Notes under the pieces: model-generated | Told to the model about the DNA's origin: nothing | Database searches by the model: none | The model's input: only the letters and a program-made list of their open reading frames with translations | Translations under genes and position numbers: made by a program | Virus record (IMG/VR): IMGVR_UViG_3300025652_000237 | Location: 1-35,013 of that record | From: a virus | Length of the DNA: 35,013 nt | Strand: one strand, 5' to 3' | Shown here: positions 5,656-35,013 of the stretch, piece by piece | Position numbering within the stretch: position 1 is the stretch's first letter | Layout of the letters: every line of letters starts with the position of its first letter

Positions 5656-6462
5656 CTATAGAAGTGCGTCTATTTTCTTTTGAAGTTTTACAATTTCTTT
5701 AGAAGCTATTTCTATTGTTCTTTCTTTCCTAGTAATACCGTAATATTTCCAATCTTCTATTTTTTTAGCAAAGCTATCTTCCATTTGTTGATTGTAATAT
5801 GCCTCATCATTATTGTAATTTTTGGCAGCATCTCTCTTTACAATCTCAGCCCATGTTGGCCACTCATACCAATTATCATCACCCCTTAGTGCCTGAATAA
5901 TTTCATCATCATTCATTTTTGAATTAATCACAATATCTTCTTTCGCCTTTGTAATTCTATCTTGATATTGTTTAAGCTCAGTATTTAACTTTTCGAGTTT
6001 AGACAGTTTCTTGTATTTTGCATCATACTCTTTAGTAAGTGTACTGTTACCTGTTTTTGGTAATCTTGTTTTGGTAATATATCTATAATGAAGGACTTGT
6101 ATATTACGCCCACCTGCATAAATTGCTTCGGTTCTAAAATCATACACTTCTCCATCTCTCTGAATTTTAGCGATTATTTCAATGTTACCTTTATTTCCGT
6201 TGTTTGATTGAATATCTACTAATGTATCGGATGGTAGTGTATATTTTTCAACAGCTTTAACCATATCCCTAGTTAAAGTTATTCTCCAACTTTCTCTATC
6301 ATATTTTGTGATATTGTTTTTTGGGAATTTCTCTCGAAACCACGCTTCGATTTCTGCTGCCATCTCAGTAATGGTCTGCTCCAATGAATCTAAAATAACA
6401 TTCATAATGTCATTTTCCTTTGATTCGTTTATAAATTGATTGTATGATTTTATATTTGCCAT
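5656..6462 (-). CDS. Hypothetical protein with capsid-targeting-like N-terminus
   Basis: A 268-residue protein starting MANIKSYNQFINESKEND. The first 13 residues match the tag seen on the cluster at 18100-21591 and resemble the T4 capsid-targeting sequence, which the gp21 protease cleaves after (L/I)xE; here the motif is INE followed by S. The rest is charged, with a C-terminal coiled-coil-like region (about 150-180 and 245-268). No catalytic motif is visible. It follows the repeated terminator/promoter-like element at 6496-6564, so it may be separately transcribed. Function unknown; a head-packed, injected protein is the inference. Confidence 0.7.
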   Translation of the reverse strand: MANIKSYNQFINESKENDIMNVILDSLEQTITEMAAEIEAWFREKFPKNNITKYDRESWRITLTRDMVKAVEKYTLPSDTLVDIQSNNGNKGNIEIIAKIQRDGEVYDFRTEAIYAGGRNIQVLHYRYITKTRLPKTGNSTLTKEYDAKYKKLSKLEKLNTELKQYQDRITKAKEDIVINSKMNDDEIIQALRGDDNWYEWPTWAEIVKRDAAKNYNNDEAYYNQQMEDSFAKKIEDWKYYGITRKERTIEIASKEIVKLQKKIDALL

Positions 6463-6563: not shown

Positions 6564-7763
6564 TTATAGTTTTAAGAAAACCTTTCTTGTTTCAGTATCA
6601 ATTCGTGTTATCTGTACAGATATACCTTCGTTTCTTGAAAGATCGTTAGGATTAGTACCTTCCGGTAATTCACTAACATGTAATAATCCAACAATTCCGT
6701 CCCCAATATCAACAAATACTCCGTAATCCTTAACAGATTTAATTAAACCTGCAACTTCTACTGGAAATGATGTATATTTGCCTGCAATTTCTTGCCATGG
6801 ATCTACTGTTTCAACAACCTCTAATTGTGTTAATGTTATTTTCTTATCACTAATGATTTCTTTAACCTTAAATTCAATTGGATCTCCTGGCATGATTTGC
6901 CTAGCCCTATGTTTATCTGCCATGTCAGGAGTTAAGTCATTTGCATGAATCATTCCTGTAAGACAATCATCGAATTCAACAAATACTCCGTATTTTGCAG
7001 AACCTGTAACATTACCATTCTTAGTAATCCCAATATTGTTTTTAAGTTCTTCTAATTTTGCAGGTATCATTGCCTGTAAATACTTTCTGTGAGATACTAT
7101 AACAGTTCCTCTGTCTGCTGAATAGCTCATTGGCACTACATATAATTCAGTTCCAACAATAGAACCAAAGTCTACAAGTTTGTTAATTCCAGCAAGTGAA
7201 CCTGGCATAAAGCAATCTATTCCTTGGATATTTACAAAATATCCTCCGTTTGGAATCATTCCTGTAACTGTTCCAGGGTATGCTGCATCTTCGGTTTCAA
7301 TTGATGCTAAAATATCTTTAAGTACTGCTGCCTTCATTCCGGCCTCAACTGATCCAATAATAAATCCTTTCTGTTTTTTATCATCTATGATTTTTACAGA
7401 TATTTCTTCACCTGGGATTAATTTTGATTTTGCTACATCTGACTCCTTAGCCATATTAACATAAATTAATTCCTTGTGGCCTATTTCGATCGTTGCCCAT
7501 TCGATGTCTACTGAATGTACTTTTCCATTATGGGTTTCGCCGGCTTCTACATTAAATACATGATCGTATGTTTCTAATATACCTTGAATTGTGTTGTACA
7601 TTTCCTGCGCATACGGCTCTCTTGAAAAAACTCTATCACCATTCTTTGTTTTGATGTTAGGGTTATGTTTTCTAGTAACTGTTGGGCAATCTTTTGTGTG
7701 TGCATCCCAGTCAAATCCTGGAACACCTTCTACTAATGTTTTGTTTTTTACGTCTTGTGACAT
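6564..7763 (-). CDS. S1-domain RNA-binding protein (ribosomal protein S1-like)
   Basis: A 399-residue protein with what look like four S1-type OB folds: a degenerate one near 74-138, then about 161-226 (PGTVTGMIPNGGYFVNIQGI), 247-314 (GNVTGSAKYGVFVEFDDCLTGMIH) and 332-399 (GLIKSVKDYGVFVDIGDGIV). Bacterial S1 carries mRNA to the 30S subunit and usually has six such domains, so this is shorter. It sits inside the baseplate cluster but has its own promoter-like box (7785-7792) and a strong terminator, suggesting separate expression. It may act on phage or host mRNA initiation, or on RNA protection; the choice is open. Confidence 0.85.
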   Translation of the reverse strand: MSQDVKNKTLVEGVPGFDWDAHTKDCPTVTRKHNPNIKTKNGDRVFSREPYAQEMYNTIQGILETYDHVFNVEAGETHNGKVHSVDIEWATIEIGHKELIYVNMAKESDVAKSKLIPGEEISVKIIDDKKQKGFIIGSVEAGMKAAVLKDILASIETEDAAYPGTVTGMIPNGGYFVNIQGIDCFMPGSLAGINKLVDFGSIVGTELYVVPMSYSADRGTVIVSHRKYLQAMIPAKLEELKNNIGITKNGNVTGSAKYGVFVEFDDCLTGMIHANDLTPDMADKHRARQIMPGDPIEFKVKEIISDKKITLTQLEVVETVDPWQEIAGKYTSFPVEVAGLIKSVKDYGVFVDIGDGIVGLLHVSELPEGTNPNDLSRNEGISVQITRIDTETRKVFLKL

Positions 7764-18099: not shown

Positions 18100-18573
18100 C
18101 TATCCAATGTCCTCTGCGTCCACTGCTGTTTTAGTTTCCTTAGATTCATTGATTTTATTAGTGTATGATTCTGCCATCTTGTTTAAACAAGCCTCATACG
18201 CCTCAGTTGCCATCTCTTCCTTTAATTCAGTTAAAGCATTAACTCCCATCTTTGCAACTAATGCCGAGTTTTCAGCCATATAGCTTTCGATAGTGTGCCC
18301 ATCATGCTCGTCTCCTGCCCAATTAGACGCTTCTTTAATTACTGCTTCGTAACATTTTTCAAGCATTCCGTATACTGGAATTGGAGCTTCTTCCTTATCC
18401 TTTAAATCAGGTAAAGGTGTTGCATCTTCTGCCTCCTGTACTGTTTCAGCCTCATCTTCAACTTCTTCAACTGATTTTGAATCTACTGCTGTCTTTTTTT
18501 CTAAATCCTTTTCGATTTCTTCTGACCTGTCCATCTCTGAGATGTATTGATCGAATGATTTTAATTTTGCCAT
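18100..18573 (-). CDS. Acidic tagged protein, putative head-packed protein
   Basis: A 157-residue strongly acidic protein starting MAKLKSFDQYISEMDRS. The tag-like start is followed by an (I)SE site, matching the IxE rule for T4 gp21 cleavage. Residues 20-65 are almost all Glu, Asp, Val and Ala; the rest is helical. Acidic head-core or packed proteins are typical of T4-like phages. It is the last gene before the hairpin at 18043-18080 and belongs to the tagged cluster. Function otherwise unknown. Confidence 0.7.
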   Translation of the reverse strand: MAKLKSFDQYISEMDRSEEIEKDLEKKTAVDSKSVEEVEDEAETVQEAEDATPLPDLKDKEEAPIPVYGMLEKCYEAVIKEASNWAGDEHDGHTIESYMAENSALVAKMGVNALTELKEEMATEAYEACLNKMAESYTNKINESKETKTAVDAEDIG

Positions 18574-18585
18574 TTTATTTGTGTA

Positions 18586-19122
18586 TTATTCTTCAAGCAA
18601 ATATTCGAAACTCGAAGGTATGATATGTTTTTGTAGTTTAAGTGCTTTTATAATTAGTGCAACAATTATTCCGCCAGGCATAATTGCTATCGCAGAAAGA
18701 CCTATTGTCTTTAATACGTCCTTTAATTGATCTCCAACTTCCTTTTTCTCAGAAGGTGACATTTTATCTCCATGTTTAAAGGCAGTGTATATCCTTTTAA
18801 ATGCTTCTATCGTTTCTTGACTTTCGTTTGCTAGCGCTTTAAAGAAATCTTTAGCATTCTTTTTAAAGTCCTGTAACTTTCCTTCCGATATCATAGATTC
18901 GTATACTTCGGCGTTCGTACCCTCTGTAATATGCTTACCTACGATCTTATATATTTCAGTTTCTAAATCATGTGGAGAAACTCCAAGTTCATCAGCAAAT
19001 GCATGCACCTCGTCGTCCGATGGTGTAGGGTTAGCTTTGAAAAAATCATGAATCTTATCTTCTAGCTTTTCGCTAACAGAAGAATTAGATGTAAATTCTT
19101 CAAATAATTTTATTCTTTTCAT
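18586..19122 (-). CDS. Tagged protein with hydrophobic C-terminal segment
   Basis: A 178-residue protein starting MKRIKLFEEFTSNSSVSEKL. The tag resembles its neighbours, but the cleavage-like Glu is displaced (FTSN rather than FINE; VSE is the next option). Residues about 140-165 (GLSAIAIMPGGIIVALIIKA) are hydrophobic and long enough to cross a membrane. The PGG turn then IIPSSFEYLL recalls LETM1-like C-termini, although this is a weak likeness. If packed and injected it could reach the host membrane, but this is inference. Confidence 0.7.
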   Translation of the reverse strand: MKRIKLFEEFTSNSSVSEKLEDKIHDFFKANPTPSDDEVHAFADELGVSPHDLETEIYKIVGKHITEGTNAEVYESMISEGKLQDFKKNAKDFFKALANESQETIEAFKRIYTAFKHGDKMSPSEKKEVGDQLKDVLKTIGLSAIAIMPGGIIVALIIKALKLQKHIIPSSFEYLLEE

Positions 19123-19138
19123 TTATTTTAATATTTTT

Positions 19139-19489
19139 TTATGATTTATATATCTTAATTCTAAGATCAGTTGTTCCAGGTATAATTCTGTGAATAATTC
19201 CTCTAGGTATTTTAATGTCGACTCCGGTAATCATCAGTGTTGGTAGTTCATTATCATATTGAAATCTCCAGTCCGAATCTTCTAATACTTCTACTAATCT
19301 ATCTTCCGGATCTGCATGCCATTTATATAAATGATCAGGATGCCCTGGCGTAAATTCTCTGACAACTTCAGTTTCAGATATAATAGTTTCAATAAATGGT
19401 TTAGTGTAATCATCAATCATTCTAATCATCTCATCATGTGACCCCTTACTGCATTTACAGTCTAAACATTTACAGTCTGGATTTACCAT
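19139..19489 (-). CDS. Cupin-like protein with N-terminal cysteine cluster
   Basis: A 116-residue protein. The N-terminus has CKCLDCKC, four cysteines that could bind zinc. The rest resembles a small cupin barrel: YKWHADPEDRLVEVLED (His and Glu metal-site-like), then GVDIKIPRGIIHRIIPGTTD with P-x-G-x2-H, the second cupin motif. Cupins include oxygenases, isomerases and sugar-binding proteins, so the reaction cannot be stated. It has no tag but sits inside the tagged cluster, overlapping the 179-residue gene by seven bases. Confidence 0.7.
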   Translation of the reverse strand: MVNPDCKCLDCKCSKGSHDEMIRMIDDYTKPFIETIISETEVVREFTPGHPDHLYKWHADPEDRLVEVLEDSDWRFQYDNELPTLMITGVDIKIPRGIIHRIIPGTTDLRIKIYKS

Positions 19490-20022
19490 GGCTGGTCAGA
19501 TTTAAGACCTAGTTGCTTACCAAATAATGTGGGTCCATAACATGCCCAAAATCCTGCCTTCATTGGATCCATCTTTTTTGCTTGATCGCATTGATGTCTA
19601 GCCCAAAAACTTGCAGCTCTGCCTGGATCATCATTCTTTACAGTAGTTGAAGGATCTCCCCACTCAACCTTCTTTGCAATAATATTACCCTCTTTATCAG
19701 TTCTGCCACTGTTTCTATAAACTATAAATTTAGCCTTACCTCCTCTTTTAGGAGAATCCAATTTTACATTAATTTGATTACCTCCCCTTGGTTTATAAAT
19801 AGCCTTTGTTCCAACTTCTAGATTTTTAGCCATCCAACCACTAGGTCCTTTAAGAATGATATTATCCTTCGCCCAATACTGTTTTACCTCTTCGAATAGT
19901 TCAGTGTATTTATCACTACCTAGTCTAAATAATGAATTGGTTAAATCAAGGCCCTCATCAATATGTGCCTTTAGTTCTGGAGATACTTCACTCCAATCTT
20001 CAAATGTCTTAATAAATTTCAT
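19483..20022 (-). CDS. Tagged protein with RARHxC-like motif
   Basis: A 179-residue protein starting MKFIKTFEDWSEVSPEL, a diverged version of the neighbouring tag. The C-terminal third carries GRAASFWARHQCDQAKK and AGFWACYGP; similar R-x-R-H-x-C ... W-x-C pairs occur in other phage proteins of unknown role and may coordinate metal through Cys and His. The middle is beta-rich and basic. The stop overlaps the cupin-like start and its ATG shares one base with the previous stop, so the genes are coupled. Confidence 0.65.
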   Translation of the reverse strand: MKFIKTFEDWSEVSPELKAHIDEGLDLTNSLFRLGSDKYTELFEEVKQYWAKDNIILKGPSGWMAKNLEVGTKAIYKPRGGNQINVKLDSPKRGGKAKFIVYRNSGRTDKEGNIIAKKVEWGDPSTTVKNDDPGRAASFWARHQCDQAKKMDPMKAGFWACYGPTLFGKQLGLKSDQPW

Positions 20023-20363
20023 TAGTCTTCAAATTTGTATGGTAGTTTCTTATCATGGCCACCGTCTCTAACTTCTTTAGCAACGTCAGCATCAGCACCT
20101 CCCCATGTTCCTTTTCCTTTTTCTAAAAATGCATTTACTCTCGCATATCCCCAGCCTTCCTGTGTCATTCCAGGATGATGGCTACTATTCCATGCGTCCA
20201 TTCCACGTCTCATTATAATTCTGAGAATAGGTAAAGGTACTCCGCTTTCCTTTGATTTGTTCTTGATTCCGGTTTCTACAGCCTTGCCTTTAAGTGGGCC
20301 TCTGTCTCCTTTAGCCTTTTCAGCCTCGTTTATGAATTGTTCAAATAATTTAATGTGCTTCAT
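20022..20363 (-). CDS. Tagged DUF5824-like protein
   Basis: A 113-residue protein starting with MKHIKLFEQFINEA, identical in the tag to the two genes that precede it. Residues 35-100 resemble a small phage domain that I recall as DUF5824: SGVPLPILRIIMRRGMDAWN, HPGMTQEGWGYARVNAFL and GADADVAKE. No function is established for the domain that I know of. If the tag is cleaved after INE the mature protein would be the bare domain. It lies between two other tagged genes, four bases from one. Confidence 0.75.
   Translation of the reverse strand: MKHIKLFEQFINEAEKAKGDRGPLKGKAVETGIKNKSKESGVPLPILRIIMRRGMDAWNSSHHPGMTQEGWGYARVNAFLEKGKGTWGGADADVAKEVRDGGHDKKLPYKFED
20325..20363 (-). repeat. 5' tag-coding repeat (MKHIKLFEQFINE), copy 1
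   Basis: The first 13 codons encode the same peptide as at 20910-20948 and 21553-21591, but with synonymous base changes, so the peptide rather than the DNA is what is kept. Confidence 0.85.
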
Positions 20364-20366
20364 TGT

Positions 20367-20948
20367 TTACTCTTTTAATTTATATACATAAAAATCATAA
20401 CCCCAGTCATTATCTTTATCGCCAGCTTTAGATATTACAATTTTATCACTAGAGTGCCAGCCAGTAAATAAGTTATCTGGATAGTCTGTTATTTTATCTA
20501 ACTTCTTTTTAACATCTTTCCAATTAACACCATCAACAAATGTTTTTCGTTTTTTAAGCATCTCATCAAATGTATTAAAAGTTTCAGAAAAACCTGAGCC
20601 TGTTTCTGGATCTGCTTTTTGGAATTTGTATCTGTATTGTGTTACTTTAGGTCCTAAAATGTTTAAGTGTACCCATTCATCAACTTCTTCAATACTAACC
20701 CTTAAATCCGGAAATTTCTTGTTAATTAGCTTCTGAACTCTTTCAGCTTCTGCGACATCTTCGCTACCAGCTTCTTCATATCCAACATCACCGTTTTCTC
20801 TTGTTTGTAACATGATTTCTTCAGTATTGTCTTCATCATAAACATCCATATATGTTTTAGTAGATTCAATGAATTTCAATATCTTTTTATGTAAAGGCTT
20901 ATCAAAACCTTCATTTATAAATTGTTCAAATAATTTAATATGTTTCAT
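20367..20948 (-). CDS. Tagged hypothetical protein, putative head-packed protein
   Basis: A 193-residue protein starting MKHIKLFEQFINEGFDKP. After the tag come an acidic region (residues 35-70, DVYDEDNTEEIMLQTREN) and a mixed fold with WHSSDKIVISKAGDKDNDW near the end. No catalytic motif recognised. Gaps of 3 and 4 bases join it to its tagged neighbours, so the trio is cotranscribed. Injection with DNA, as for T4 internal proteins, is the inference. Confidence 0.7.
   Translation of the reverse strand: MKHIKLFEQFINEGFDKPLHKKILKFIESTKTYMDVYDEDNTEEIMLQTRENGDVGYEEAGSEDVAEAERVQKLINKKFPDLRVSIEEVDEWVHLNILGPKVTQYRYKFQKADPETGSGFSETFNTFDEMLKKRKTFVDGVNWKDVKKKLDKITDYPDNLFTGWHSSDKIVISKAGDKDNDWGYDFYVYKLKE
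20910..20948 (-). repeat. 5' tag-coding repeat, copy 2
   Basis: The 13 codons encode MKHIKLFEQFINE with synonymous differences from copies 1 and 3. Confidence 0.85.
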
Positions 20949-20952
20949 AGTT

Positions 20953-21591
20953 CTATTCTTTTATTTTAATATCTTCCGCCTTAATATCATTATATGTAAA
21001 CACTGACTTCATACCAGGTGGCATCAAAGGATCCGGCATCCAGCCATATCCCTTACCATTTATCTCTAAGATAACAGGATCATCACCAAAATCAAAATAT
21101 TGATCTAATTTTCTAGCTGCTCCAATTGAAGTAACTGCAAACGTAGCTCTGTATAATTGTTCAGTTGAATTACTACCAGATAATCCAGATCCAAACGTAT
21201 CACTGTGTCCATTTGCTTCTCTAGCAGACATACCATTCTTTAAAATAGCTTCTGCATTTTTACGTGCAGTTTTATGATATGCTTTACCAACTCTTGCAGA
21301 TCCAGATGCTATCATAACACTAAAGTCATTACCGCTTGAATAACCAACGGCAGTTTTAGTTGTTAATACTCCATCATTAGATTTAGCCCACTTTTTAATT
21401 TCTTTTTCTAATTTAACTATCTCAGGTGGAGCTTTCTTAGTATCATTAGGTAATTTAACAGATATACTTCGCGAGCCAATTACTGGATCATTAAATCCTG
21501 CCTTAATAAATAACTTAACTATATCATCTTTCACCTTGTCTGATGAATATGCCTCATTAATAAATTGTTCAAATAGCTTAATATGCTTCAT
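20953..21591 (-). CDS. Tagged ADP-ribosyltransferase-like protein
   Basis: A 212-residue protein with the tag MKHIKLFEQFINE at its start. Residues 105-120 read YHKTARKNAEAILKNG, the Tyr-His-x-Thr then N-A-x-x-I-L-x-x-G signature of several ADP-ribosyltransferase-fold proteins that bind NAD. Residues 150-180 supply a beta-alpha segment (ATFAVTSIGAARKL then PVILEING) and the end has YNDIKAEDIKI, as in that fold. The later Tyr and Glu of the H-Y-E triad were not assigned. T4 Alt is likewise packed, tagged and injected, so this may modify host RNA polymerase or another protein. Tpt1-like or toxin-like folds are alternatives. Confidence 0.65.
   Translation of the reverse strand: MKHIKLFEQFINEAYSSDKVKDDIVKLFIKAGFNDPVIGSRSISVKLPNDTKKAPPEIVKLEKEIKKWAKSNDGVLTTKTAVGYSSGNDFSVMIASGSARVGKAYHKTARKNAEAILKNGMSAREANGHSDTFGSGLSGSNSTEQLYRATFAVTSIGAARKLDQYFDFGDDPVILEINGKGYGWMPDPLMPPGMKSVFTYNDIKAEDIKIKE
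21553..21591 (-). repeat. 5' tag-coding repeat, copy 3
   Basis: The 13 codons encode MKHIKLFEQFINE with synonymous differences from copies 1 and 2. Confidence 0.85.
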
Positions 21592-22374: not shown

Positions 22375-23301
22375 TTATGATAAGATTAATTCCTTTGAAT
22401 ATTCCTTATGATACTTTATTAGTGCTAATTCCTTTGCCTTGACTTCTAGTTCAATATCTAGGTCCATTCCATATGTTTCTATATACTCATATATGTAATC
22501 GGCATGTGCTCTTAGAATCACTGAGTCATCTTCATTTAGTTTCTTAGATGATGAATAGTGACATAGTTGTCTAATACCCTTTGGCCATGTTTTAGCGCAT
22601 AATTCTAATGCATCTTTTTCTGCCATTGGATCTTCATAGCACATGTGATGAAAATAATCAAATGTAATTGGAGTTCCACATAACTTATAAATTTCATATA
22701 GATCTTTAACGCCATATTGACTTGGCTTATCATCATTTTCTAATACTAATCGAGATGCAGCAGTTTCAGGTAATAGTTTAAAGCTTTCCGCAAATCTTTT
22801 AATTGCAGATTCTTTATCGCCATATGTGCCACCGACATGAATGTTCATTGCTGCATAGTGCGTTCGCGGTAATCCCATTAGGTCAAATACTTTGCCGTGT
22901 TGCGTTAATTCATGAATTGCACTATCGACTACACTTTTTCTTGGGCTTGCAAGAATATTGAATGGACCTGGATGGAATGTAAGTCTTTGACCTACCTTTG
23001 TTGCATAATCTCCTGCCTCTTTGAGTAATATTTTGATTGCTTCATAGTTGGGTAATTCGGATATATCGTATTCAGAATTCCAAGGAAACATACTAGATGA
23101 CATCCTGTACATTGTAATTCCATTGTCATGATTCCATTTAAGGATTTTTATCATGTCTGTGAGGTTGGCTTCGGCCAACTCACCTGCGTATTTAATTCCC
23201 TTTGCTTGGAATGTTCGTTTAATCATTCCTCTGCCAATCTTTACCTTTTCGTTTTTATCCATCGTAAGATTGATACAACAGTATCCATAGTTTGCAGCCA
23301 T
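22375..23301 (-). CDS. uvsE: UV-damage endonuclease (UvsE/UvdE family)
   Basis: A 308-residue TIM-barrel enzyme that nicks DNA 5' to UV photoproducts. Landmarks are GYCCINLTM at the start, WNHDNGITMYRMSSSMFPW (70-92), LTFHPGPFNIL (HxG metal-site), NIHVGGTYGDK, LVLENDDKP, and ITFDYFHHMCY (DxHH). These follow the family order and metal-binding residues. T4 uses the unrelated glycosylase DenV for this job. A short A/T-rich gap with A-tract precedes the ATG. It lies downstream of the small 89-residue gene in the same unit. Confidence 0.93.
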   Translation of the reverse strand: MAANYGYCCINLTMDKNEKVKIGRGMIKRTFQAKGIKYAGELAEANLTDMIKILKWNHDNGITMYRMSSSMFPWNSEYDISELPNYEAIKILLKEAGDYATKVGQRLTFHPGPFNILASPRKSVVDSAIHELTQHGKVFDLMGLPRTHYAAMNIHVGGTYGDKESAIKRFAESFKLLPETAASRLVLENDDKPSQYGVKDLYEIYKLCGTPITFDYFHHMCYEDPMAEKDALELCAKTWPKGIRQLCHYSSSKKLNEDDSVILRAHADYIYEYIETYGMDLDIELEVKAKELALIKYHKEYSKELILS

Positions 23302-24710: not shown

Positions 24711-25055
24711 TTATTTCCAAAATATTTGTACACATATTATCATTACAGCAAGAATTAGTGAAATTATTGTTTTAGTGCTTAGGCCTTCTCCCATCATAAT
24801 ATAGGTTAGGAGTGCAAAGGATAGTATTCCCATTGTAAATCCTATGAATCTTCCTGGCCATAATTGTCCATCGTAATACACTGCAACCATATATGTTGCC
24901 TTAATAAAAATGTATGATATAAATGAACCCCCTATTATTGACACCAGTATCGGATTACGCTTAAACCATGGCCAAACAAACTGACCATTTGTTTGAAACC
25001 ATATTAATGATTGCCCGATTAGGAATAGTAATATTCCATATATTAAATTAATCAA
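24711..25055 (-). CDS. Four-helix membrane protein
   Basis: A 114-residue hydrophobic protein with about four membrane helices and conserved-looking polar loops (FQTNGQFVWPWFKRN, AVYYDGQLWPGRFIG). A TTG start overlaps the stop of RNase HII (TTGA); no ATG is available before residue 55, so the TTG start is likely. The general form recalls small transporter-like proteins seen in phages, but I cannot assign a substrate. Confidence 0.7.
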   Translation of the reverse strand: MINLIYGILLFLIGQSLIWFQTNGQFVWPWFKRNPILVSIIGGSFISYIFIKATYMVAVYYDGQLWPGRFIGFTMGILSFALLTYIMMGEGLSTKTIISLILAVMIICVQIFWK

Positions 25056-25684
25056 AATAGCGAACCTGTTGCAGTTAATAAATGGGAAATGAAGCTTGGT
25101 CGATGTGCTTCATTTGGACCTATTTCCTTAATTGCGTCAATATGCTGTTTTGTGCCATACCCTTTATTAGAATTCCATCCATATCCTGGTGTTTCAATAT
25201 CTAATTGTTTCATCATTGCATCCCTGCTTGTCTTTGCTAGAATACTTGCTGCGGCAATTGAAATATATTTATTATCTCCACCTATTATTGTTTCGAATGG
25301 CATACCATCAAATCCATGGAATTGATCTCCATCAACAAGAATAAAATCAAAATCATGATTTTTTCTAACCTCCCCGAGACACTTATTCATGCCAGTAAGG
25401 GTAGCTCGTAGTATATTGGTTGATTCTATCTCATCTGGAAATATGTGCTCCACGTGATATGCGAGTGCATACTGTAGTACAATTTCTCTAGCACTCTTAC
25501 GTTGACTTTCATTTAACAATTTAGAATCCTTTATTAATTCATGTTGAAAATCAAATGGCATTATACATGCTGCAACAGTTACTGGACCTGCAAGTGCTCC
25601 TCTGCCTGCCTCATCAAGTCCTATTTCAATAGTACTCTCGTCCTTAGTGTAACTTGATTTTAGGTATATGTGTTTTGATTCCAT
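25052..25684 (-). CDS. rnhB: Ribonuclease HII
   Basis: A 210-residue enzyme that cuts RNA in RNA-DNA hybrids, useful for primer removal in phage replication. Signatures: IGLDEAGRGALAGPV (D24, E25), ILVDGDQFHG (D118), ILAKTSRDAMM with D155, and a C-terminal PSFISHLL. The ATG at 25684 is preferred to an upstream GTG at 25711 because the extra residues are unconserved and the ATG lies in a normal A-rich leader. It follows the PhoH gene and overlaps the membrane protein. T4 RNase H is an unrelated 5' nuclease, so this is a different solution. Confidence 0.93.
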   Translation of the reverse strand: MESKHIYLKSSYTKDESTIEIGLDEAGRGALAGPVTVAACIMPFDFQHELIKDSKLLNESQRKSAREIVLQYALAYHVEHIFPDEIESTNILRATLTGMNKCLGEVRKNHDFDFILVDGDQFHGFDGMPFETIIGGDNKYISIAAASILAKTSRDAMMKQLDIETPGYGWNSNKGYGTKQHIDAIKEIGPNEAHRPSFISHLLTATGSLF

Positions 25685-25728
25685 GGTATATTGTTTAGAT
25701 ATTATATACACAAAATCAAAATAGTTTC

Positions 25729-26436
25729 TTATTTATCAGGATTGTTCATCTTCCACTTGTCATATCTATCAACAACGATTTGAAGTATCTTAGCTCTTAC
25801 AATATCCTTTGTAGTAAAGAAGTGCATGCCAATTCCCTTGACACCTTGCACTAATTGAATAAATCCAGGAAGACCAATGTTATTTTTTGGAATATCATAC
25901 TGGCTAATATCTCCAGTAACTATTACTTTAGAACCTTTACCCATCCTGGTTACAAATAACATAATCTGTTTAAATGTTGCATTTTGTGCTTCATCTAATA
26001 TCATTAATGAATTGTCAAATGTATCTCCTCGCATATAAGCCATTGGCCTAAAAACGATAACTTCGCTTTCAACGAGAGCTTGTGCAACTTCATGCCCTAC
26101 TATTTTTGTGATGTTTGAAATATATGATTGCATGAAAGGATCTATCTTATCCGCGATATCGCCAGGTAAGAATCCTAGTTTTTCACCAGCCTCTTGGATT
26201 GGTTTACACAAAACTATTTGTGAAATTTCTTTATTAGCTAATAACTTTAATGCTGTATAACATGCTGTAAATGTTTTTGAAGTTCCGGCAGGACCTTGAC
26301 ATAGTGTTATTTCATTTTCAAGTATTGTATGGACGTATCTGTCCTGGGATTGTCGTAATTGGGCTTTTATGTTTTCGGGTTTAATATTAATCAATTTTTT
26401 GTTATTTGGTCTTTTTGAATTATTTCCTTTATCCAT
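25729..26436 (-). CDS. phoH: PhoH-like ATPase
   Basis: A 235-residue P-loop ATPase from the PhoH family, common in phages but of uncertain role (RNA helicase-like or phosphate-linked). Walker A is GPAGTSKT (about 48-55), Walker B is LMILDEAQN (144-152), followed by GDISQYDIP and a C-terminal helix. The ATG at 26436 is preferred; an alternative GTG at 26460 would add eight residues and overlap the previous stop. Neighbours are the UVR-like small gene and RNase HII. Confidence 0.9.
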   Translation of the reverse strand: MDKGNNSKRPNNKKLINIKPENIKAQLRQSQDRYVHTILENEITLCQGPAGTSKTFTACYTALKLLANKEISQIVLCKPIQEAGEKLGFLPGDIADKIDPFMQSYISNITKIVGHEVAQALVESEVIVFRPMAYMRGDTFDNSLMILDEAQNATFKQIMLFVTRMGKGSKVIVTGDISQYDIPKNNIGLPGFIQLVQGVKGIGMHFFTTKDIVRAKILQIVVDRYDKWKMNNPDK

Positions 26437-26452
26437 GTATTTCTTTAAATGA

Positions 26453-26713
26453 TTAATCACCTGCCATTATGACAAGTTCCCTTAGTTTTGAAAGCTTATT
26501 ACATTTTTCATATTCCTCAAGTTCAATAAAATACCCAATGAGTAAATCGATGAACATGCTTCTTTGCCCTATTCCATGTGGAATATCTATTGTATTTTTA
26601 TTATCTTTATAGACAACAAACCAATTAACTGTTTTAGTAAAGTTACTGGTTATTGTATAATAACTAGACCTCATTAGAGAATCTCTCTCCGTACCTTCAT
26701 CAATTCCTTCCAT
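26453..26713 (-). CDS. Small protein with UVR-like C-terminal motif (1 of 3)
   Basis: An 86-residue protein ending IELEEYEKCNKLSKLREL, resembling the UVR motif (EEYEKAAxLRD) that mediates protein contacts in UvrB, UvrC and Clp ATPases. Two other genes here (26978-27244 and 28226-28504) share this ending and size. The leader has AAGGATCTGG seven bases before the ATG, which is a rare Shine-Dalgarno-like sequence in this window. Function unknown. Confidence 0.7.
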   Translation of the reverse strand: MEGIDEGTERDSLMRSSYYTITSNFTKTVNWFVVYKDNKNTIDIPHGIGQRSMFIDLLIGYFIELEEYEKCNKLSKLRELVIMAGD

Positions 26714-26817
26714 TTCCAGATCCTTTTTTTAATAAACAATATTAGTGTTATACTATTATAATTTATATATTCGAGATAAGGCTATGAAATGGTCAGTTAT
26801 AGAGAAAGGTTATTATA

Positions 26818-26997
26818 TTATATGTTCTTAGATTGCTTGTATTTTGCCTTAATATTCATTTTCCTCTTAGAAACAGAGGGCTTAATATATTCCTTTCTTT
26901 CTCTTAATTCCTGAAGCTGCTTTGTATCTCTAGTCTTTTTCTTTAGAGTCTTAAGAGCTCGATCTATGTTTGAGTTTTCAACCTTTACTATTATCAT
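26818..26997 (-). CDS. rpsU: Ribosomal protein bS21 homologue
   Basis: A 59-residue protein: MIIVKVENSNIDRALKTL, then KKKTRDTKQLQELRER and KEYIKPSVSKRK, with MNIKAKYKQ at the end. This matches bS21 (a central basic R-E/Y-x-KPS-x-x-(K)R block). bS21 binds the 30S platform beside the anti-Shine-Dalgarno tail. It starts inside the last 20 bases of the upstream gene, so it is translationally coupled, and its leader lacks a Shine-Dalgarno sequence. It was missed by size filters. Short but the frame is intact and the similarity is clear. It may replace or compete with host bS21. Confidence 0.88.
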   Translation of the reverse strand: MIIVKVENSNIDRALKTLKKKTRDTKQLQELRERKEYIKPSVSKRKMNIKAKYKQSKNI

Positions 26998-27244
26998 ATA
27001 ACTTGTTTATTATTTTCAGTAGTTTTCCACATTTTTCATATTCTTCTTTCTCTTTAAAAAACGATAATACACTATGTAGTCCTTCTATCTTGCTGTCTGC
27101 AGGAGCCTCGTGGCTTAACGCACCCATCTCTCCATTTATTACAGAATTATATATCATCTCCATCATTTCTGCCTTTGGTGACTGATACATTTTGCGCATG
27201 AAGCTAAGGGGTCTTCCATCAGGTTCATCCAATTCATCCATCAT
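26978..27244 (-). CDS. Small protein with UVR-like C-terminal motif (2 of 3)
   Basis: An 88-residue protein starting MMDELDEPDGRPL and ending with FKEKEEYEKCGKLLKIIN, the same EEYEKC signature as at 26453-26713. The N-terminal part is acidic then helical. Its start overlaps the DnaJ stop by four bases (ATGA), and its own end overlaps the bS21 start. The linked position suggests a regulatory or adaptor role, without proof. Confidence 0.7.
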   Translation of the reverse strand: MMDELDEPDGRPLSFMRKMYQSPKAEMMEMIYNSVINGEMGALSHEAPADSKIEGLHSVLSFFKEKEEYEKCGKLLKIINKLYDNSKG

Positions 27245-28026
27245 GATTCTTTAATCTTTTTAAGTAATTCAATTTGCTCGTTATTGAGATTAATTGAATT
27301 TGTTCTAAGTTTTACCATTAAATTGCCATATCCATCTCCATCCGGTAATGGCATTCCTTTGCCAATAACTCTAAGTGTTTTAGATTCCTGTGAACCTGTT
27401 GGAACTTTAATCTTTACACGATTTACCTTTGTCTTGATTTCAAATTCTCCGCCTAGTAATATGTCAATCCAATCTAAATATAGGTCAATATAGATATCTG
27501 ATCCATTTATAATTAGATCAGCATCTGGTAGTATATTTATCGTGATAATTATGTCGCCATTTGGCGCGCTTGAATTGATTGGATGTGCCTGTCCTCTGCC
27601 TTTGACTTTAAGTTTTGATCCATTTAAAATTCCTTGAGGGATTTTAATATTAAATCCACCAGTCCCGACATCGATGTATCTTCGAGTTCCTTCATAGCAT
27701 TCCTCCACTGTTATATTTAATGATACTCTGACATCATGTCCCCTGGCACCTTGGTTAAATGTATTGTCAAATGCATCAGCGAAATTATATCTACTAAATA
27801 TATCCTCCCATGCACTATTAACATTGCCAAAACTTTCCTTAGTATCGTGGCTTCTTCTTTTGTCAGGATCTCCTAAAACCCCATACGCCTCAGAAAGCCG
27901 TTTGAACATGGAGTCATCTCCACCTGTTTTATCAGGATGGTATTGCTTGACTAATGTTCTATAGGATTTTTTTATATCATCATGTGATGCATCCTTAGAA
28001 ACATTTAATGTTTCATAATAGTCCAT
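27241..28026 (-). CDS. DnaJ/Hsp40 co-chaperone (class B)
   Basis: A 261-residue protein. The J domain (1-70) has KSYRTLVKQYHPDKTGG with the HPD that activates DnaK. A short linker is followed by two C-terminal peptide-binding domains (95-245) with VSLNITVEECYEGTRRYI, GSKLKVKGRGQAHP and GKGMPLPDGDGYGNL. The zinc-finger domain of class A DnaJ is absent, so CbpA-type is likely. No DnaK or GrpE was found in the window, so it presumably recruits host DnaK for phage folding or assembly. It starts 5 bases after the 55-residue gene. Confidence 0.92.
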   Translation of the reverse strand: MDYYETLNVSKDASHDDIKKSYRTLVKQYHPDKTGGDDSMFKRLSEAYGVLGDPDKRRSHDTKESFGNVNSAWEDIFSRYNFADAFDNTFNQGARGHDVRVSLNITVEECYEGTRRYIDVGTGGFNIKIPQGILNGSKLKVKGRGQAHPINSSAPNGDIIITINILPDADLIINGSDIYIDLYLDWIDILLGGEFEIKTKVNRVKIKVPTGSQESKTLRVIGKGMPLPDGDGYGNLMVKLRTNSINLNNEQIELLKKIKES

Positions 28027-28030
28027 TGAT

Positions 28031-28198
28031 TTATTTAGAAGATGGTGCCTTTGTATGTGGTGTTTTAGGAGGTGTGTTCAATTTAACATTCTTTCGCTCC
28101 TTCATATTTATGTTAATTTCTCTGGCCTGTTTATTTTCCATACAAATGGCTATCCTCTCCAGGCTTTTTGCGATATGTTCTAATGCTTGCTCGTTCAT
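28031..28198 (-). CDS. Small hypothetical protein (55 residues)
   Basis: A 55-residue ORF starting MNEQALEHIAKSLERIAI, helical then basic and Pro/Lys-rich (NTPPKTPHTKAPSSK). It fits exactly between the UVR-like gene and DnaJ with a four-base gap to the latter. Frame intact, no homology recognised. Confidence 0.55.
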   Translation of the reverse strand: MNEQALEHIAKSLERIAICMENKQAREININMKERKNVKLNTPPKTPHTKAPSSK

Positions 28199-28225
28199 AA
28201 TTATTTATATTATTATATTATATAT

Positions 28226-28504
28226 TTATATTTGTTCGAGTACATTTCTTAAGTCTGCACATTTTTCATATTCCTCAAGTTCAACAAAAATATCAAGCAT
28301 TTGATTAATGGTATTAGTAAGCTCAGTCTCGTCTATTCCATGATTTCGCATGGCATTGACGTCAATACCATTATCCATTATCCTATTATAATTCTCAATT
28401 GCTAATCTTATCTTTAGCTCTTTAAGTAATATTTTCTGTTCAGCTTCCATCTTAATTGTTTCGGTTTCGTTTTCTTCGTTGAATACTTCTTCCCATTCTT
28501 CCAT
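28226..28504 (-). CDS. Small protein with UVR-like C-terminal motif (3 of 3)
   Basis: A 92-residue acidic protein ending FVELEEYEKCADLRNVLEQI, the closest of the three to a UVR motif (EEYEKxAxLR). The N-terminal part (MEEWEEVFNEENETE) is very acidic. It is the first gene after repeat element C. Role unknown; a protein-protein adaptor is the inference. Confidence 0.75.
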   Translation of the reverse strand: MEEWEEVFNEENETETIKMEAEQKILLKELKIRLAIENYNRIMDNGIDVNAMRNHGIDETELTNTINQMLDIFVELEEYEKCADLRNVLEQI

Positions 28505-30240: not shown

Positions 30241-32073
30241 TTAATCTTCAGTATATAATATGTTAGCAACCATCTCCTCTTTACCATATCTCGGAGGAGT
30301 ATGCAAAGGAGCATGTGGGTTTTCCTCATATGCCCAGTCATGCAATCCTAGGTCAGTAAATCTGTCTTTGATTTGTTCATTATAGTAATAACCAATTGTT
30401 CTTACACGTCTTTGAATATCTGCTCTCGCCATATCGTGTGTGTTTTGGCCATTTGCGTTATTATATAAGAATTGAACATATCCTAGTTTTGGTATTTTAC
30501 ATGTAATAGTATTAAGGAAAGTTCTTATAACTAATTCATAATCATCAGCAACTGCAAGATTTCTATTATGTCCTCCGATTTCAAAGTACGTTGAACGTCT
30601 CCATGCCCTTACATGATTTGGAATTCCAACAATATGTCTAATTGTTTTTGGATTAATGTTATGTTGATTTGCAACCTTCATCATTTTGCCATTATACTCC
30701 TCATCTCTATATGAACCATATGCAAATGCAAATCCATCTGGATATGTCTGAGATTCCCAGTCTTCATTAACTTCTAATGTATCGTTAAAAAAGAATCCAG
30801 CTTCTGGATGTTTCTTTGCTGCTTTATATAAATCCTCAGTACACCATGGAACTAATAAATCATCATGGTCCAATTCTGCAAGAATAAATCCCTTTGCCAT
30901 ACAGTTTGCTCTCCATTTAACTTCGCCGATAAGACCACCACTCTTTTCTCTAAAATCATATACCTTAACTCTAGGATCTTTACTAGCAATATCTTCCGCT
31001 ATTTTAAGAGTTCTTCCTCCATCTGTAGAATCATTCAACAATACCCACTCCCAATTAGCATATGTCTGTTGCCTCAGGGAATCATACGTGTTATATAATT
31101 TATCTCCAGTGTTATATATTGGTGTTGTATATGAAATCATCTCAGAGTCTTCGAGAGAATCCGTGTCAAGCATTACAGCCATAGCACACTGATACGCGGC
31201 TTGGCCCACTTCGTCAGTAGACATATTCTCTGGCATATTCATCCACTTCCTACGAAACTGTAAAGGCATGCTTGCCATTTCTTGAAAATCTTTCCATGAA
31301 TCACCTCTGGTTATAATACTATCTGGGTTAAATTCTGCTAAATGAATATGAATGCCATTATCATTCTTTAAGTACTTAACATCTAGATTGTCTGCCTCGT
31401 AATTTAATATTTTTAAGGATTTAAGTTCTGGCTCATCTTTACCAATATACAATACTTTAGGAACTTTGGCAGTTGATTTCTTTTCAAGTGCATTATAGTT
31501 ACATAATACCTCATTAATAAATGTAAATTTACTGGCAACATTCTTATATAACTGTGTTACGAATTCACCATCCGCAACATAGCCAGATCCGTATTCTTGA
31601 TTTTCATGTAAATCTGAATGAATTAACCATTGTGCTAAATCTATTTTAGAAACTGCAACGTTCTCAGGCTTTGCTTCTCTAACTTCAAGGCCACTAAAAT
31701 CAATTCCACCAACCCATTGTGAAAATATAAATGCAAGCGTATCTGGATTCTTTTTATAATTACTTTCAATAGACTTATAAAAATCAGGGTGTAATAAATT
31801 ATCATCATCTAGGTGATATATCCAACCATCTGCTGATTTAATTATATCATTCAATTGGCTGAGTCCCCATCCATCACCCTTCCTAAAGTGCAAGGTAGTA
31901 TTCTCATCATCTAATCGGTTTAACAGTTCGGCATCAATATCTTTAAGCATCTTTGTGTCGAACACAATGTGCCAATCTATTTTTGTATTTTCAGTTGTAT
32001 TAGAGAAAACCGAATTTTTAACACATTCAATGTTACCTAATCGAGTGCATCTTGTAATTATACTAAATTTCAT
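30241..32073 (-). CDS. Glycosyltransferase with two GT-A (GT2-like) domains
   Basis: A 610-residue protein with two glycosyltransferase domains. The first (about 1-200) has LDDDNLLHP at 88-96; the second (about 310-540) has YTTPIYNTGDKLYNTYDSLR and LDHDD at 401-405, a DXD-like metal site typical of GT2, plus RRSTYFEIGGHN. Between lies a linker (210-310). No membrane segment is seen, so it is probably cytosolic. It is close behind an oxygenase and a collagen-like fibre and may glycosylate the fibre or host-derived sugar. Substrate is not proven. Confidence 0.88.
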   Translation of the reverse strand: MKFSIITRCTRLGNIECVKNSVFSNTTENTKIDWHIVFDTKMLKDIDAELLNRLDDENTTLHFRKGDGWGLSQLNDIIKSADGWIYHLDDDNLLHPDFYKSIESNYKKNPDTLAFIFSQWVGGIDFSGLEVREAKPENVAVSKIDLAQWLIHSDLHENQEYGSGYVADGEFVTQLYKNVASKFTFINEVLCNYNALEKKSTAKVPKVLYIGKDEPELKSLKILNYEADNLDVKYLKNDNGIHIHLAEFNPDSIITRGDSWKDFQEMASMPLQFRRKWMNMPENMSTDEVGQAAYQCAMAVMLDTDSLEDSEMISYTTPIYNTGDKLYNTYDSLRQQTYANWEWVLLNDSTDGGRTLKIAEDIASKDPRVKVYDFREKSGGLIGEVKWRANCMAKGFILAELDHDDLLVPWCTEDLYKAAKKHPEAGFFFNDTLEVNEDWESQTYPDGFAFAYGSYRDEEYNGKMMKVANQHNINPKTIRHIVGIPNHVRAWRRSTYFEIGGHNRNLAVADDYELVIRTFLNTITCKIPKLGYVQFLYNNANGQNTHDMARADIQRRVRTIGYYYNEQIKDRFTDLGLHDWAYEENPHAPLHTPPRYGKEEMVANILYTED

Positions 32074-32090
32074 ATTATTATATTATATTA

Positions 32091-33044
32091 TTATACGTCA
32101 AAGAAAAACATGTGAAAGAATCTTGCATTGTCTATTGCATCTCCAAAATATTCGGTGGCTGCATGTATATTTTTTGCATCAAATAAAACAAGTCTATTAT
32201 ATACGTTTCCTACTTCATCTATTTTTTCAAAGTGTGTACCATCGTAAAAATTCATTTCTTTGCTATTACCTGTAAACGCGTCAACATATGCTCGAGTACT
32301 TCTCTTTGCATCATCAAACTTATAATCCCTTGTTAGTTTACTTCTATAAAACGAGGTACCTGTTCCTGCAGGGGCTTCAGGTGTTAAATACACCATCCCT
32401 GCATATGTTTGGTTGTCCACATGATAGACGATAGGTTGGTCTGCTGTACAGAATTGAAATATTCCGTTTGCATAACTATCATGATTCCAGTTATAAATAG
32501 GCTTGCCTATAATTTCTTCTAACCTTTCCTTTGTTCCATCCACAATAAATCTAGATGTGGCTCTTTCTCCCTTATGATAATCTGAAGGAGAATATTCTAT
32601 TTCGCTCATTGCCCATTCTCTAATTAAGTCAGGGTTAGCATAAAAATTATCTACTACAATTAATCCTTTATCATTGTTTGCAAATCCTGAATAGTATGAA
32701 ACCCATTTAGCTAATGATTCTATTTCATAATCTATGATTTCATTAGTATCATTGTCGGTTACTGAAACGATAATGTTTTCTGACAAATTATATCCATCGA
32801 TCGTAATTACAAATCCGATATTTGTATCCTTTAACTTTGGATAAAATAAACCAACGTCAGATCTATCTAAAAATCCAGGGAAAGGATCAGACGCAATAGA
32901 CCCCTTTAATCTAATATTCGTTATTTTACCATTATTTGCAAAAATCCAGCCAGTAAGTTCATGTTTAGACTCCTTTGTTTCAACAGCATCAATATACATT
33001 AATATATTACTTGATGATGTTTGATGTTTGATAATATCTGCCAT
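32091..33044 (-). CDS. 2OG-Fe(II) oxygenase-like protein (DUF6445-like) with beta-sandwich N-terminus
   Basis: A 317-residue protein. Residues 115-317 carry the 2OG-Fe(II) dioxygenase triad: H208-x-D210 (YHVDNQTYAGMVYLTP), H294 (NRLVLFDAKNIHAATEYFGD) and R308 (NARFFHMFFF). This arrangement resembles what I recall as DUF6445. The N-terminal 110 residues form a separate beta-rich region (GWIF..., RSDVGLFYP) of a kind seen in sugar-acting proteins. It may hydroxylate the collagen-like protein upstream, by analogy with prolyl and lysyl hydroxylases. The reaction is not shown. Confidence 0.8.
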   Translation of the reverse strand: MADIIKHQTSSSNILMYIDAVETKESKHELTGWIFANNGKITNIRLKGSIASDPFPGFLDRSDVGLFYPKLKDTNIGFVITIDGYNLSENIIVSVTDNDTNEIIDYEIESLAKWVSYYSGFANNDKGLIVVDNFYANPDLIREWAMSEIEYSPSDYHKGERATSRFIVDGTKERLEEIIGKPIYNWNHDSYANGIFQFCTADQPIVYHVDNQTYAGMVYLTPEAPAGTGTSFYRSKLTRDYKFDDAKRSTRAYVDAFTGNSKEMNFYDGTHFEKIDEVGNVYNRLVLFDAKNIHAATEYFGDAIDNARFFHMFFFDV

Positions 33045-33168
33045 GCTTATTATACACTTGTTTTCTGATTAGTTTATTATTATATTATATTATTATATAT
33101 CACTAAAAAAGGGACCCTCGTATGAGGATCCCTTTAATTACTATTACTTAGATATAAGGTATTAGTTA
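33045..33168 (-). promoter_or_regulatory. Gap after the collagen-like gene
   Basis: 124 bases with no gene. The distal half holds the terminator at 33108-33134; the part near 33044 is an A/T-only alternating tract, which may contain a promoter for the oxygenase gene but has no distinct box. Confidence 0.4.
33108..33134 (-). terminator. Terminator after the collagen-like fibre gene
   Basis: A stem of 12 pairs (AAAGGGATCCTC / GAGGGTCCCTTT on the minus strand) with a four-base loop, followed by a T-run. One pair is G-U on the minus strand but a C-A mismatch on the plus strand, so it favours leftward termination. Confidence 0.88.
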
Positions 33169-35013
33169 TTACATCGGCTGTAACATATACATCTCTCCGT
33201 CTATATCGACAACAAGCATGCCCATCTCCGGATCAAAGTATATATTTGCTCCACCGCCGCCTCCAGCAGGTCCAGCAGGTCCAGTTGCTCCAGTTGCTCC
33301 GGCAGGTCCAGTTGCTCCAGCAGGTCCAGCAGATCCTGTATTACCAGTATTACCTTTAGCGCCAGCAGGTCCAGTAGGTCCAGCGGGTCCAGTTGCTCCA
33401 GCAGATCCTGTATTACCAGTTGCTCCAGCAGGTCCAGTAGGTCCAGCGGGTCCAGTTGCACCAGTTATGTTTACGTTATTAACAGGTACAGTACCGTTTG
33501 TTAAATCAACATATAATTTACCAGAATTTAATGCTACTGTTTTTATACCAACTCCAGTTCCTCCAATAGGTCCAGTTGTACCAGTAGATCCTTTAGCTCC
33601 AGCAGGTCCAACAGATCCAATAGGTCCAACAGGTCCAACGGATCCCGTATTACCAGTATCTCCTTTAAGACCGGTATTTCCTTTAGCTCCAGTTGCTCCA
33701 GAAGAACCAGCTATTCCTTGATAACCTTGATAACCTCTAGCTCCAGCAGGTCCGACAGATCCAGTAGGTCCAACAGGTCCAACGGATCCCGTATAACCTG
33801 TATCTCCTTTAAGACCGGTATCTCCTTTAGCTCCAGTTGCTCCGTTTGTACCATTAGTACCAGCGGCTCCTTGTGGTCCAACAGATCCAATAGGTCCAAC
33901 AGGTCCAACGGATCCCGTATAACCCGTATCTCCTTTAAGACCGGTATCTCCTTTAGCTCCTTTAGCTCCGTTTGTACCATTAGTACCGGCGGCTCCTTGT
34001 GCTCCAACAGGTCCAACAGGTCCAACAGATCCAATAGGTCCAACAGGTCCAACGGATCCCGTATAACCTGTATCTCCTTTAAGACCGGTATCTCCTTTAG
34101 CTCCAGTTGCTCCGTTTGTACCATTAGTACCAGCGGCTCCTTGCGCTCCATTAGAACCATCAAATCCTTCAGGTCCTTGTGGTCCTTGAACACCAGTAGA
34201 ACCAGTTGCTCCCGTAGGTCCAGTAGGTCCAACAGGTCCCATTGCTCCGTCTCCACCGTCATCTCCTTTGACTCCAGTTACTCCTATTGGACCAGCTATA
34301 CCCTGTGCTCCAGTATCTCCTTTAGCTCCAGTAGCTCCTTGAATACCATTAGTACCATTAGTACCATTAGTACCAGCAGTTCCTTGATCTCCTTTAGCTC
34401 CAGTTGCTCCTTGGGCTCCAGTTGCTCCAGTATTACCATATACTCTACCAACGTTTAGTGAACCAAATGCTTCTCCTTCAATTACTAGGTTTACTCCTTC
34501 TAAAGCTGCACCTACGATGGATGCTCCTATTGGACCAATTGGTCCAGTGAAACCTTGATCTCCTTTAGCTCCAGTAGCTCCTTGAATACCATTAGTACCA
34601 GCAGTTCCTTGATCTCCTTTAGCTCCAGTTACTCCTATTGGACCAATTGGTCCAGTGAAACCTTGATCTCCTTTAAGACCAGTATCTCCTTTAAGACCAG
34701 TATCTCCTTTAAGACCAGTATCTCCTTTAATACCAGTATCTCCTTTAATACCTTGAATACCATCGTCTCCTTTAGTACCCTGAACTCCGATAACTCCTTG
34801 AATACCATCGTCTCCTTTGAATCCTTGATCTCCTTTTAATCCAGTATCTCCTTTAGTACCTTTAACTCCTTGAATACCATCGTCTCCCTTGAAACCTTGA
34901 TCTCCTTTAAGACCAGTATCTCCTTTGAATCCTTGATCTCCTTTTAATCCAGTATCTCCTTTAGTACCTTGAACTCCTTGAATACCATCGTCTCCTTTAG
35001 TACCCTGAACTCC
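33169..35013 (-). CDS. Collagen-like fibre protein, 5' end missing (cut by window edge)
   Basis: The frame continues from the right edge to the stop at 33169, giving at least 614 residues, mostly Gly-X-Y triplets such as GPT, GPV, GAT and [10 protein letters not shown]. Three non-collagen segments break the repeat: [18 protein letters not shown] (near 34440-34520), [18 protein letters not shown] (near 33466-33570) and a C-terminal cap ending GEMYMLQPM (33172-33260). A start at 34242 is artificial, since the Gly-X-Y frame stays open upstream. Such proteins form trimeric rods; here a tail or head fibre is likely. Thr in the Y position (GPT, GAT) could be a glycosylation site, as in Bacillus BclA. 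Confidence 0.92.
33781..33873 (-). repeat. Collagen-gene tandem repeat, copy 1
   Basis: A 93-base unit identical to copy 3 (34051-34143) and differing from copy 2 by a few bases. It encodes [20 protein letters not shown] followed by GDTGYTGSV. Confidence 0.85.
33907..33999 (-). repeat. Collagen-gene tandem repeat, copy 2
   Basis: As copy 1 but with GAKGAKG in place of GATGAKG and a few synonymous changes. It lies 126 bases from copy 1, which keeps the nine-base Gly-X-Y register. Confidence 0.85.
34051..34143 (-). repeat. Collagen-gene tandem repeat, copy 3
   Basis: Identical to copy 1 over all 93 bases; 144 bases from copy 2, again a multiple of nine. A degraded fourth version lies around 33640-33710. 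Confidence 0.85.

Follow-up and report, generated by a model that had tools for sequence, protein, structure and literature searches.

Why does a virus of Bacteroidota carry its own gene for ribosomal protein bS21, and why does that gene start without the Shine-Dalgarno (SD) sequence that its host counterpart, rpsU, so often bears? Bacteroidota bS21 sets whether ribosomes read SD sequences, and rpsU is the main user of this switch: it is autoregulated via ribosomes without bS21, with bS21-free ribosomes favouring the SD-bearing rpsU mRNA and replete ones favouring SD-less mRNA (PMC9976891). The window analysed here, the whole stretch of 35,013 nucleotides, is a 35-kb IMG/VR virus record with T4-like baseplate genes, and its source is a large virus of Bacteroidota bacteria. 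Judged by the baseplate wedge protein, the phages of the collection that come closest to it are huge and uncultured: LR756500 (462 kb, 40% identity) first, followed by genomes of 636-735 kb and the Prevotella Lak phages.

Identity and conservation of the phage bS21

The gene that raises the question is:

26818..26997, minus strand: phage bS21 gene, 59 aa, ATG start, no SD (Pfam, NCBIfam and PDB matches; SD energy -1.8)

The reading frame is intact, running from an ATG at 26997 to a stop at 26818-26820. Its 59-residue product matches the Pfam family Ribosomal_S21 (PF01165; E=6.7e-13, 48.6 bits against a cut-off of 27, profile positions 2-54 of 55) and the NCBIfam bS21 model TIGR00030 (E=1.1e-11, 44.4 bits, cut-off 28.95), and its nearest solved structures are 9i5v and the Flavobacterium johnsoniae bS21 in 7jil. 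The preliminary description of this DNA, made from the letters alone, had taken the product for an intact 59-residue bS21 homologue; with both profiles above their cut-offs and the PDB matches in agreement, that identification holds.

An alignment with host and phage bS21 proteins, which the preliminary description had also proposed, places the protein in the Bacteroidota type, with the aromatic residue that locks the anti-SD (ASD) kept and the mRNA-facing helix altered. The alignment, in F. johnsoniae numbering, covers 71 distinct host proteins, 52 distinct proteins of this phage lineage and 62 from other phages, with ribosome-contact residues taken from McNutt (PMC9976891) and Chen (PMC9723584). 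Tyr53 of the phage protein aligns with F. johnsoniae Tyr54, the residue already published as conserved in phage bS21 of Bacteroidota (PMC9723584), and position 54 is aromatic in 51 of the 52 lineage proteins and in 71 of 71 hosts. The C-terminal half of the 52 lineage proteins also keeps K40, R46, K51 and A52. In the N-terminal half, positions that are invariant or nearly so in hosts (P5, R18, R21, F23, D24, G27 and T28) are changed: position 5 is never proline, F23 is replaced by V or T, G27 mostly by K, and T28 by Q in 52 of 52 proteins, Q not being among the host residues listed at that position. This pattern agrees with Chen 2022 and carries those observations over to another lineage of phages. 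Position 54 is non-aromatic in a single lineage bS21, from a 170-kb contig (L250, a fragment), which is also the only tested lineage contig in which no bS1-like protein (see below) was found.

Where it is present, bS21 is under purifying selection (dN/dS ~0.05): 11 closely related, non-independent pairs give dN/dS values of ~0.053 for bS21, and of 0.09 and 0.015 for the small genes on either side of it, here called A and B. The bS21 tree, built on 64 columns, is mostly unresolved and does not reject a single origin of the lineage proteins (p-AU 0.27). Searches of 50,697 phage records by tblastn with the bS21 and the gene B proteins gave no match, nor did a scan of viral contigs with the gene A protein alone.

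Gene neighbourhood and expression

The surroundings of bS21 contain the following features, given from upstream to downstream:

28226..28504, minus strand: third small EEYEKC-motif protein, recognised by sequence (weak UVR match, E=0.006, for the L003 counterpart)
28031..28198, minus strand: small gene of 55 aa that opens the DnaJ-A-bS21 unit (spacing; position matched in L002)
27241..28026, minus strand: DnaJ-type co-chaperone with J domain and DnaJ C-terminal domain (Pfam E=2.7e-28 and 2.2e-21; 4-nt overlap with gene A)
26978..27244, minus strand: gene A, 88-aa helical protein with an EEYEKC motif (model pLDDT 80); its stop overlaps the bS21 start by 20 nt
26764..26771, minus strand: conserved AATATATA element, probable phage promoter, downstream of bS21 and 35-60 nt upstream of gene B
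26453..26713, minus strand: gene B, 86 aa, highly conserved, C-terminal EEYEKC motif (8-nt overlap with phoH)
25729..26460, minus strand: PhoH-like ATPase (Pfam E=2.4e-62)
25052..25711, minus strand: RNase HII (Pfam E=3.6e-34)

The genes thus follow one another on a single strand as small gene, DnaJ, gene A overlapping bS21, then after 104 nt gene B overlapping PhoH, and RNase HII. The cluster from DnaJ to RNase HII, bS21 included, is found in 62 of the 80 IMG/VR loci carrying gene B, a count that corresponds to 65 of 83 listed entries when the window and two repeats are included. Gene B shows 80% mean column identity over 15 loci.

In 45 of 50 distinct loci gene A runs past the start of bS21, most commonly by 7 nt, which points to translational coupling. 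The preliminary description had spoken of coupling to a UVR-like gene; the 20-nt overlap in the window agrees with the coupling, and the UVR label could not be confirmed. Both A and B close with an EE[YF]EKC motif (hhalign 95% over 25 columns), but scans of 15 members of each family gave no match to Pfam UVR (PF02151), and hhalign of gene A against UVR reaches a probability of 11%, if in the right register (host ...EDYEKAAKIRDQI...). Only weak leads to a UVR identity for A or B came from Foldseek, VIA-align and a search of PDB sequences: McsA (8wtb_B) is among the weak fold matches of both models, and by VIA it scores Z 5.0 with an rmsd of 2.5 over 44 residues, not above unrelated entries. The relevance of gene A here lies in the expression of bS21 more than in its own function.

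Downstream of bS21, AATATATA precedes gene B by 35-60 nt in 62 of 65 distinct loci, where shuffled sequence would give 2.6, and is invariant in 15 loci. It is probably a phage promoter for B-PhoH, in which case bS21 would belong to the preceding transcription unit. A more general use of AATATATA as a promoter within the window was rejected, its counts being no higher than in shuffled sequence; only the conserved position before gene B stands out. The DnaJ unit is preceded by a similar element at 28219-28226.

Several other features of the window were recorded. At least seven ORFs in 18100-21591 and 5656-6462, on the minus strand, start with a similar leader, MKHIKLFEQFINE and variants of it, which bS21 does not have; by eye this leader resembles the T4 capsid-targeting sequence, which suggests proteins that may be packaged and injected. 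One ORF at 20953-21591 looks ADP-ribosyltransferase-like by eye and has no match in Pfam, NCBIfam or PHROGs. A UV-damage endonuclease, UvdE, is encoded at 22375-23301 (minus strand, Pfam E=2.5e-59). In 30241-35013, also on the minus strand, a collagen-like repeat protein (Pfam E=1.4e-42) lies beside a DUF6445 protein and a family 2 glycosyltransferase, possibly a collagen-modifying set for the tail fibre.

Leaders of host rpsU and phage bS21

SD strength was calculated as the energy of pairing between the 21 upstream bases from -23 to -3 and the 16S tail AUCACCUCCUUUCU. The leader of this bS21 gives -1.8 kcal/mol, that is, no SD, as the preliminary description had stated, and is far weaker than the extended SD of an autoregulated rpsU (pairing below -13 kcal/mol). 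By contrast, all 80 Flavobacteriales rpsU leaders pair at -13 kcal/mol or lower (median -19.75), in a set that was seeded with F. johnsoniae rather than drawn at random. Among distinct phage bS21 genes, 4 of 76 are at or below -7 kcal/mol (median -1.1), and the median for the leaders of this lineage is -1.35 kcal/mol. In 30 genomes from across the Bacteroidota, 20 rpsU leaders reach -9 or lower and 10 are weaker; a strong rpsU SD is a firm rule in Flavobacteriales and is not universal in the phylum. The contrast with host rpsU is real and strong, and some Bacteroidota nevertheless have an rpsU without an SD.

The phage genome itself is poor in SD sequences, again in line with the preliminary description. 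The 48 main genes of the window have a median of -1.15 kcal/mol, with four at or below -5 compared with 4.9% of shuffles; their leaders are A-rich, with SD energies like those of shuffled sequence. SD-less leaders are thus the default for the genes of this phage, so the absence of an SD before bS21 need not be an adaptation for escape from feedback. The exceptional leader is that of host rpsU, rather than that of the SD-less phage bS21.

There are exceptions on both sides. The bS21 gene of the 735-kb phage LR756501 (L029 / L348) keeps a strong SD, AAAGGAGGAU, at -12.1, where 21 ORFs nearby have a median of -2.2, and further phage exceptions are L064, L089 and L090. Among hosts, a chromosomal rpsU without a strong SD (L200, G053:C27) has integrase-like and hpf-like genes for neighbours, and its genome holds another bS21 gene (G053:C34); two bS21 copies also occur in the host genomes G104 and G119.

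Loss of bS21 and retention of a bS1-like protein

In 14 of the 80 loci, genes A and B are present and bS21 is absent from between them; among the others, three are truncated too near gene B for a decision, and in L282 neither gene A nor bS21 is seen. An in-frame deletion of 135 bp within bS21, bordered by a short ATTATAAA repeat and leaving codons for MLIINAKYKQPRDL, separates L232 from its sister L231; the two clusters are otherwise nearly identical. The L237-L254 group, which includes two 234-kb records, has no bS21 at all. On the PhoH tree the presence and absence of bS21 require at least four changes, one of them resting on L282, which sits on a long branch. This tree alone cannot separate gain from loss; the remnant in L232 shows that loss has occurred. 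The neighbourhood is thus stable while bS21 itself is accessory, and at least some relatives can do without it. The persistence of A and B without bS21 in these 14 relatives also means that neither depends on it, and gene A as an obligate partner of bS21 was rejected on this ground.

A second protein of the window with a counterpart in the ribosome behaves differently:

6564..7763, minus strand: bS1-like protein, 399 aa, S1 domains colinear with bS1 domains 1-4 (Pfam S1 E=2.2e-23; NCBIfam bS1 E=8e-40; PDB bS1 E=2.6e-35)

NCBIfam bS1 models cover residues 54-397; the curated cut-off for full-length bS1 is not reached (136.7 bits against 524) because the protein is a four-domain short form. A bS1-like protein was found in 25 of the 33 records tested and in 18 of 19 lineage contigs, including 6 of 6 tested lineage contigs that lack bS21, as well as in 6 of 6 huge phages. 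In this lineage it is bS21 that varies, whereas bS1 is stable. The bS1-like protein is a possible functional partner of bS21 in mRNA recruitment.

Possible roles of the phage bS21

The reading that we favour, and regard as fairly probable, is that of a substitute bS21, which would replace host bS21 in the 30S subunit, leave the ASD locked and be translated outside the rpsU feedback. It starts from the protein family, the residues kept and changed, the missing SD, the overlap with gene A, the purifying selection and the gene order. During infection the phage protein would enter host 30S subunits and displace host bS21, its C-terminal half would hold the 16S rRNA 3' tail in its pocket, and the ribosomes would remain in the SD-independent mode that host and phage mRNAs both need; the altered N-terminal helix would change the surface near the mRNA. 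We infer this incorporation for the present protein; elsewhere, a phage bS21 has been incorporated into E. coli ribosomes, the sole phage bS21 tested left such ribosomes nearly inactive in vitro (PMC6375957), and phage bS21 is expressed late (PMC9723584).

With no SD and a start that overlaps the end of gene A, the bS21 mRNA would be translated by ordinary replete ribosomes with the aid of coupling, and would thus not come under the rpsU feedback, which favours SD-bearing rpsU mRNA only where ribosomes are without bS21. The preliminary description had suggested that the phage copy could escape host control. The missing SD and the strong contrast with host rpsU stand; the escape itself is what this contrast, taken together with McNutt 2023 (PMC9976891), leads us to expect, presumably to the benefit of the phage. 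Judged from the leaders, the phage bS21 is probably made outside host control, and as a prediction the idea of escape from feedback is well founded.

Taken further, the same contrast could turn the feedback against the host: phage bS21 would fill the ribosomes with the ASD locked, no bS21-free ribosomes would be left for rpsU, host bS21 would be shut off and the pool would become phage-typed without a protease. The retained Tyr54 and C-terminal contacts, the missing phage SD and the extreme SD of host rpsU are consistent with such a hijack, as is the 3-5 fold better translation of rpsU when bS21 is missing or carries Y54A (PMC9976891). McNutt 2023 (PMC9976891), however, speculates the reverse, with autoregulation protecting the host or restoring host bS21; moreover, control of this kind could not reach a host whose rpsU has no SD (of 30 leaders sampled, 10 are weaker than -9), and infection may be too short. 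We consider the hijack possible but rather unlikely, and put forward only tentatively its fullest, improbable form, in which the SD-less phage bS21 would satisfy the host sensor, silence rpsU and, together with the phage bS1, convert the ribosome pool without proteolysis.

Chen 2022 (PMC9723584) and Al-Shayeb 2020 (PMC7162821) proposed mRNA-selective ribosomes, the preliminary description likewise thought that phage mRNA might gain the ribosomes, and here the altered N-terminal helix, perhaps with the bS1-like protein, might favour phage mRNAs. The concentration of divergence in the mRNA-facing half, in agreement with PMC9723584, and the presence in the same phage of a bS1-like protein with domains 1-4 would fit such selection, but we found no feature that distinguishes phage mRNAs, the 48 leaders being A-rich and SD-less like those of the host. 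In addition, L232 has lost bS21 with its neighbouring leaders almost unchanged, and bS1 persists without bS21, which leaves selection of phage mRNAs doubtful.

A simpler possibility, to which we would give a similarly low weight, is that the phage tops up the supply of bS21 for fast SD-less initiation during heavy late translation, with specificity unchanged. Initiation on SD-less mRNAs suffers when bS21 is lost (PMC9976891), the ASD-locking half is kept and a gene without an SD would be constitutive; such a top-up nevertheless leaves unexplained the consistent replacement of host-invariant N-terminal residues. An extraribosomal RNA-binding role with gene A as dedicated partner, for which the conserved overlap and the reported occurrence of bS21 outside the ribosome in the OLE complex (PMC12054373) might be cited, is very improbable given that A and B persist where bS21 is gone and that ribosome-contact residues are conserved.

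The extreme SD of host rpsU, set against the near-constant lack of one in phage bS21, turns a vague idea of ribosome hijack into one that is directly testable in F. johnsoniae. The deleted sister L232 beside L231, and the 735-kb phage that keeps its SD, offer ready-made comparisons.

Comparison with known systems

The closest published parallel is with myophage clades a-e of Chen 2022 (PMC9723584), which share with the window a Bacteroidota-type bS21, an aromatic residue at position 54, N-terminal divergence and a large myovirus genome. In those clades bS21 is a neighbour of TerL, portal, protease and MCP but is encoded on the opposite strand from them; in the window two EYEKC genes enclose it, DnaJ and PhoH are close by, and it shares their strand and overlaps the upstream gene. 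TerL, portal, protease and MCP are all missing from the ten scanned products (bS21 and nine neighbours), which are encoded on a single strand. The main text of Chen 2022 makes no mention of autoregulation or of the rpsU SD, and we found no discussion of the missing SD of phage bS21 genes there or in McNutt 2023 (PMC9976891).

Al-Shayeb 2020 (PMC7162821) described rpS1 and rpS21 in huge phages and linked rpS1 with scarce SD sequences. The huge phages LR756500-LR756504, LR745206 and Lak resemble the window in their baseplate wedge (28-40% identity) and in carrying a bS1-like protein, and four of six tested also carry bS21. The closest of them, LR756500 (462 kb), differs from the window in having bS1 and no bS21, and LR756501 (735 kb) in the strong SD before its bS21 (-12.1). 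F. johnsoniae rpsU (PMC9976891) encodes a protein of the same family with the same ASD-locking C-terminal half, but is autoregulated via an extended SD, which the phage gene lacks. The bS21 of Pelagibacter phage HTVC008M (Mizuno 2019, PMC6375957) is likewise phage-encoded, and enters ribosomes; it is, however, of alphaproteobacterial type, from a phage of another host phylum. Phage bS21, its Tyr54 and the joint carriage of bS1 and bS21 are thus already published (Mizuno 2019, Al-Shayeb 2020, Chen 2022), whereas the SD contrast, this lineage with its gene context and the natural deletions look new.
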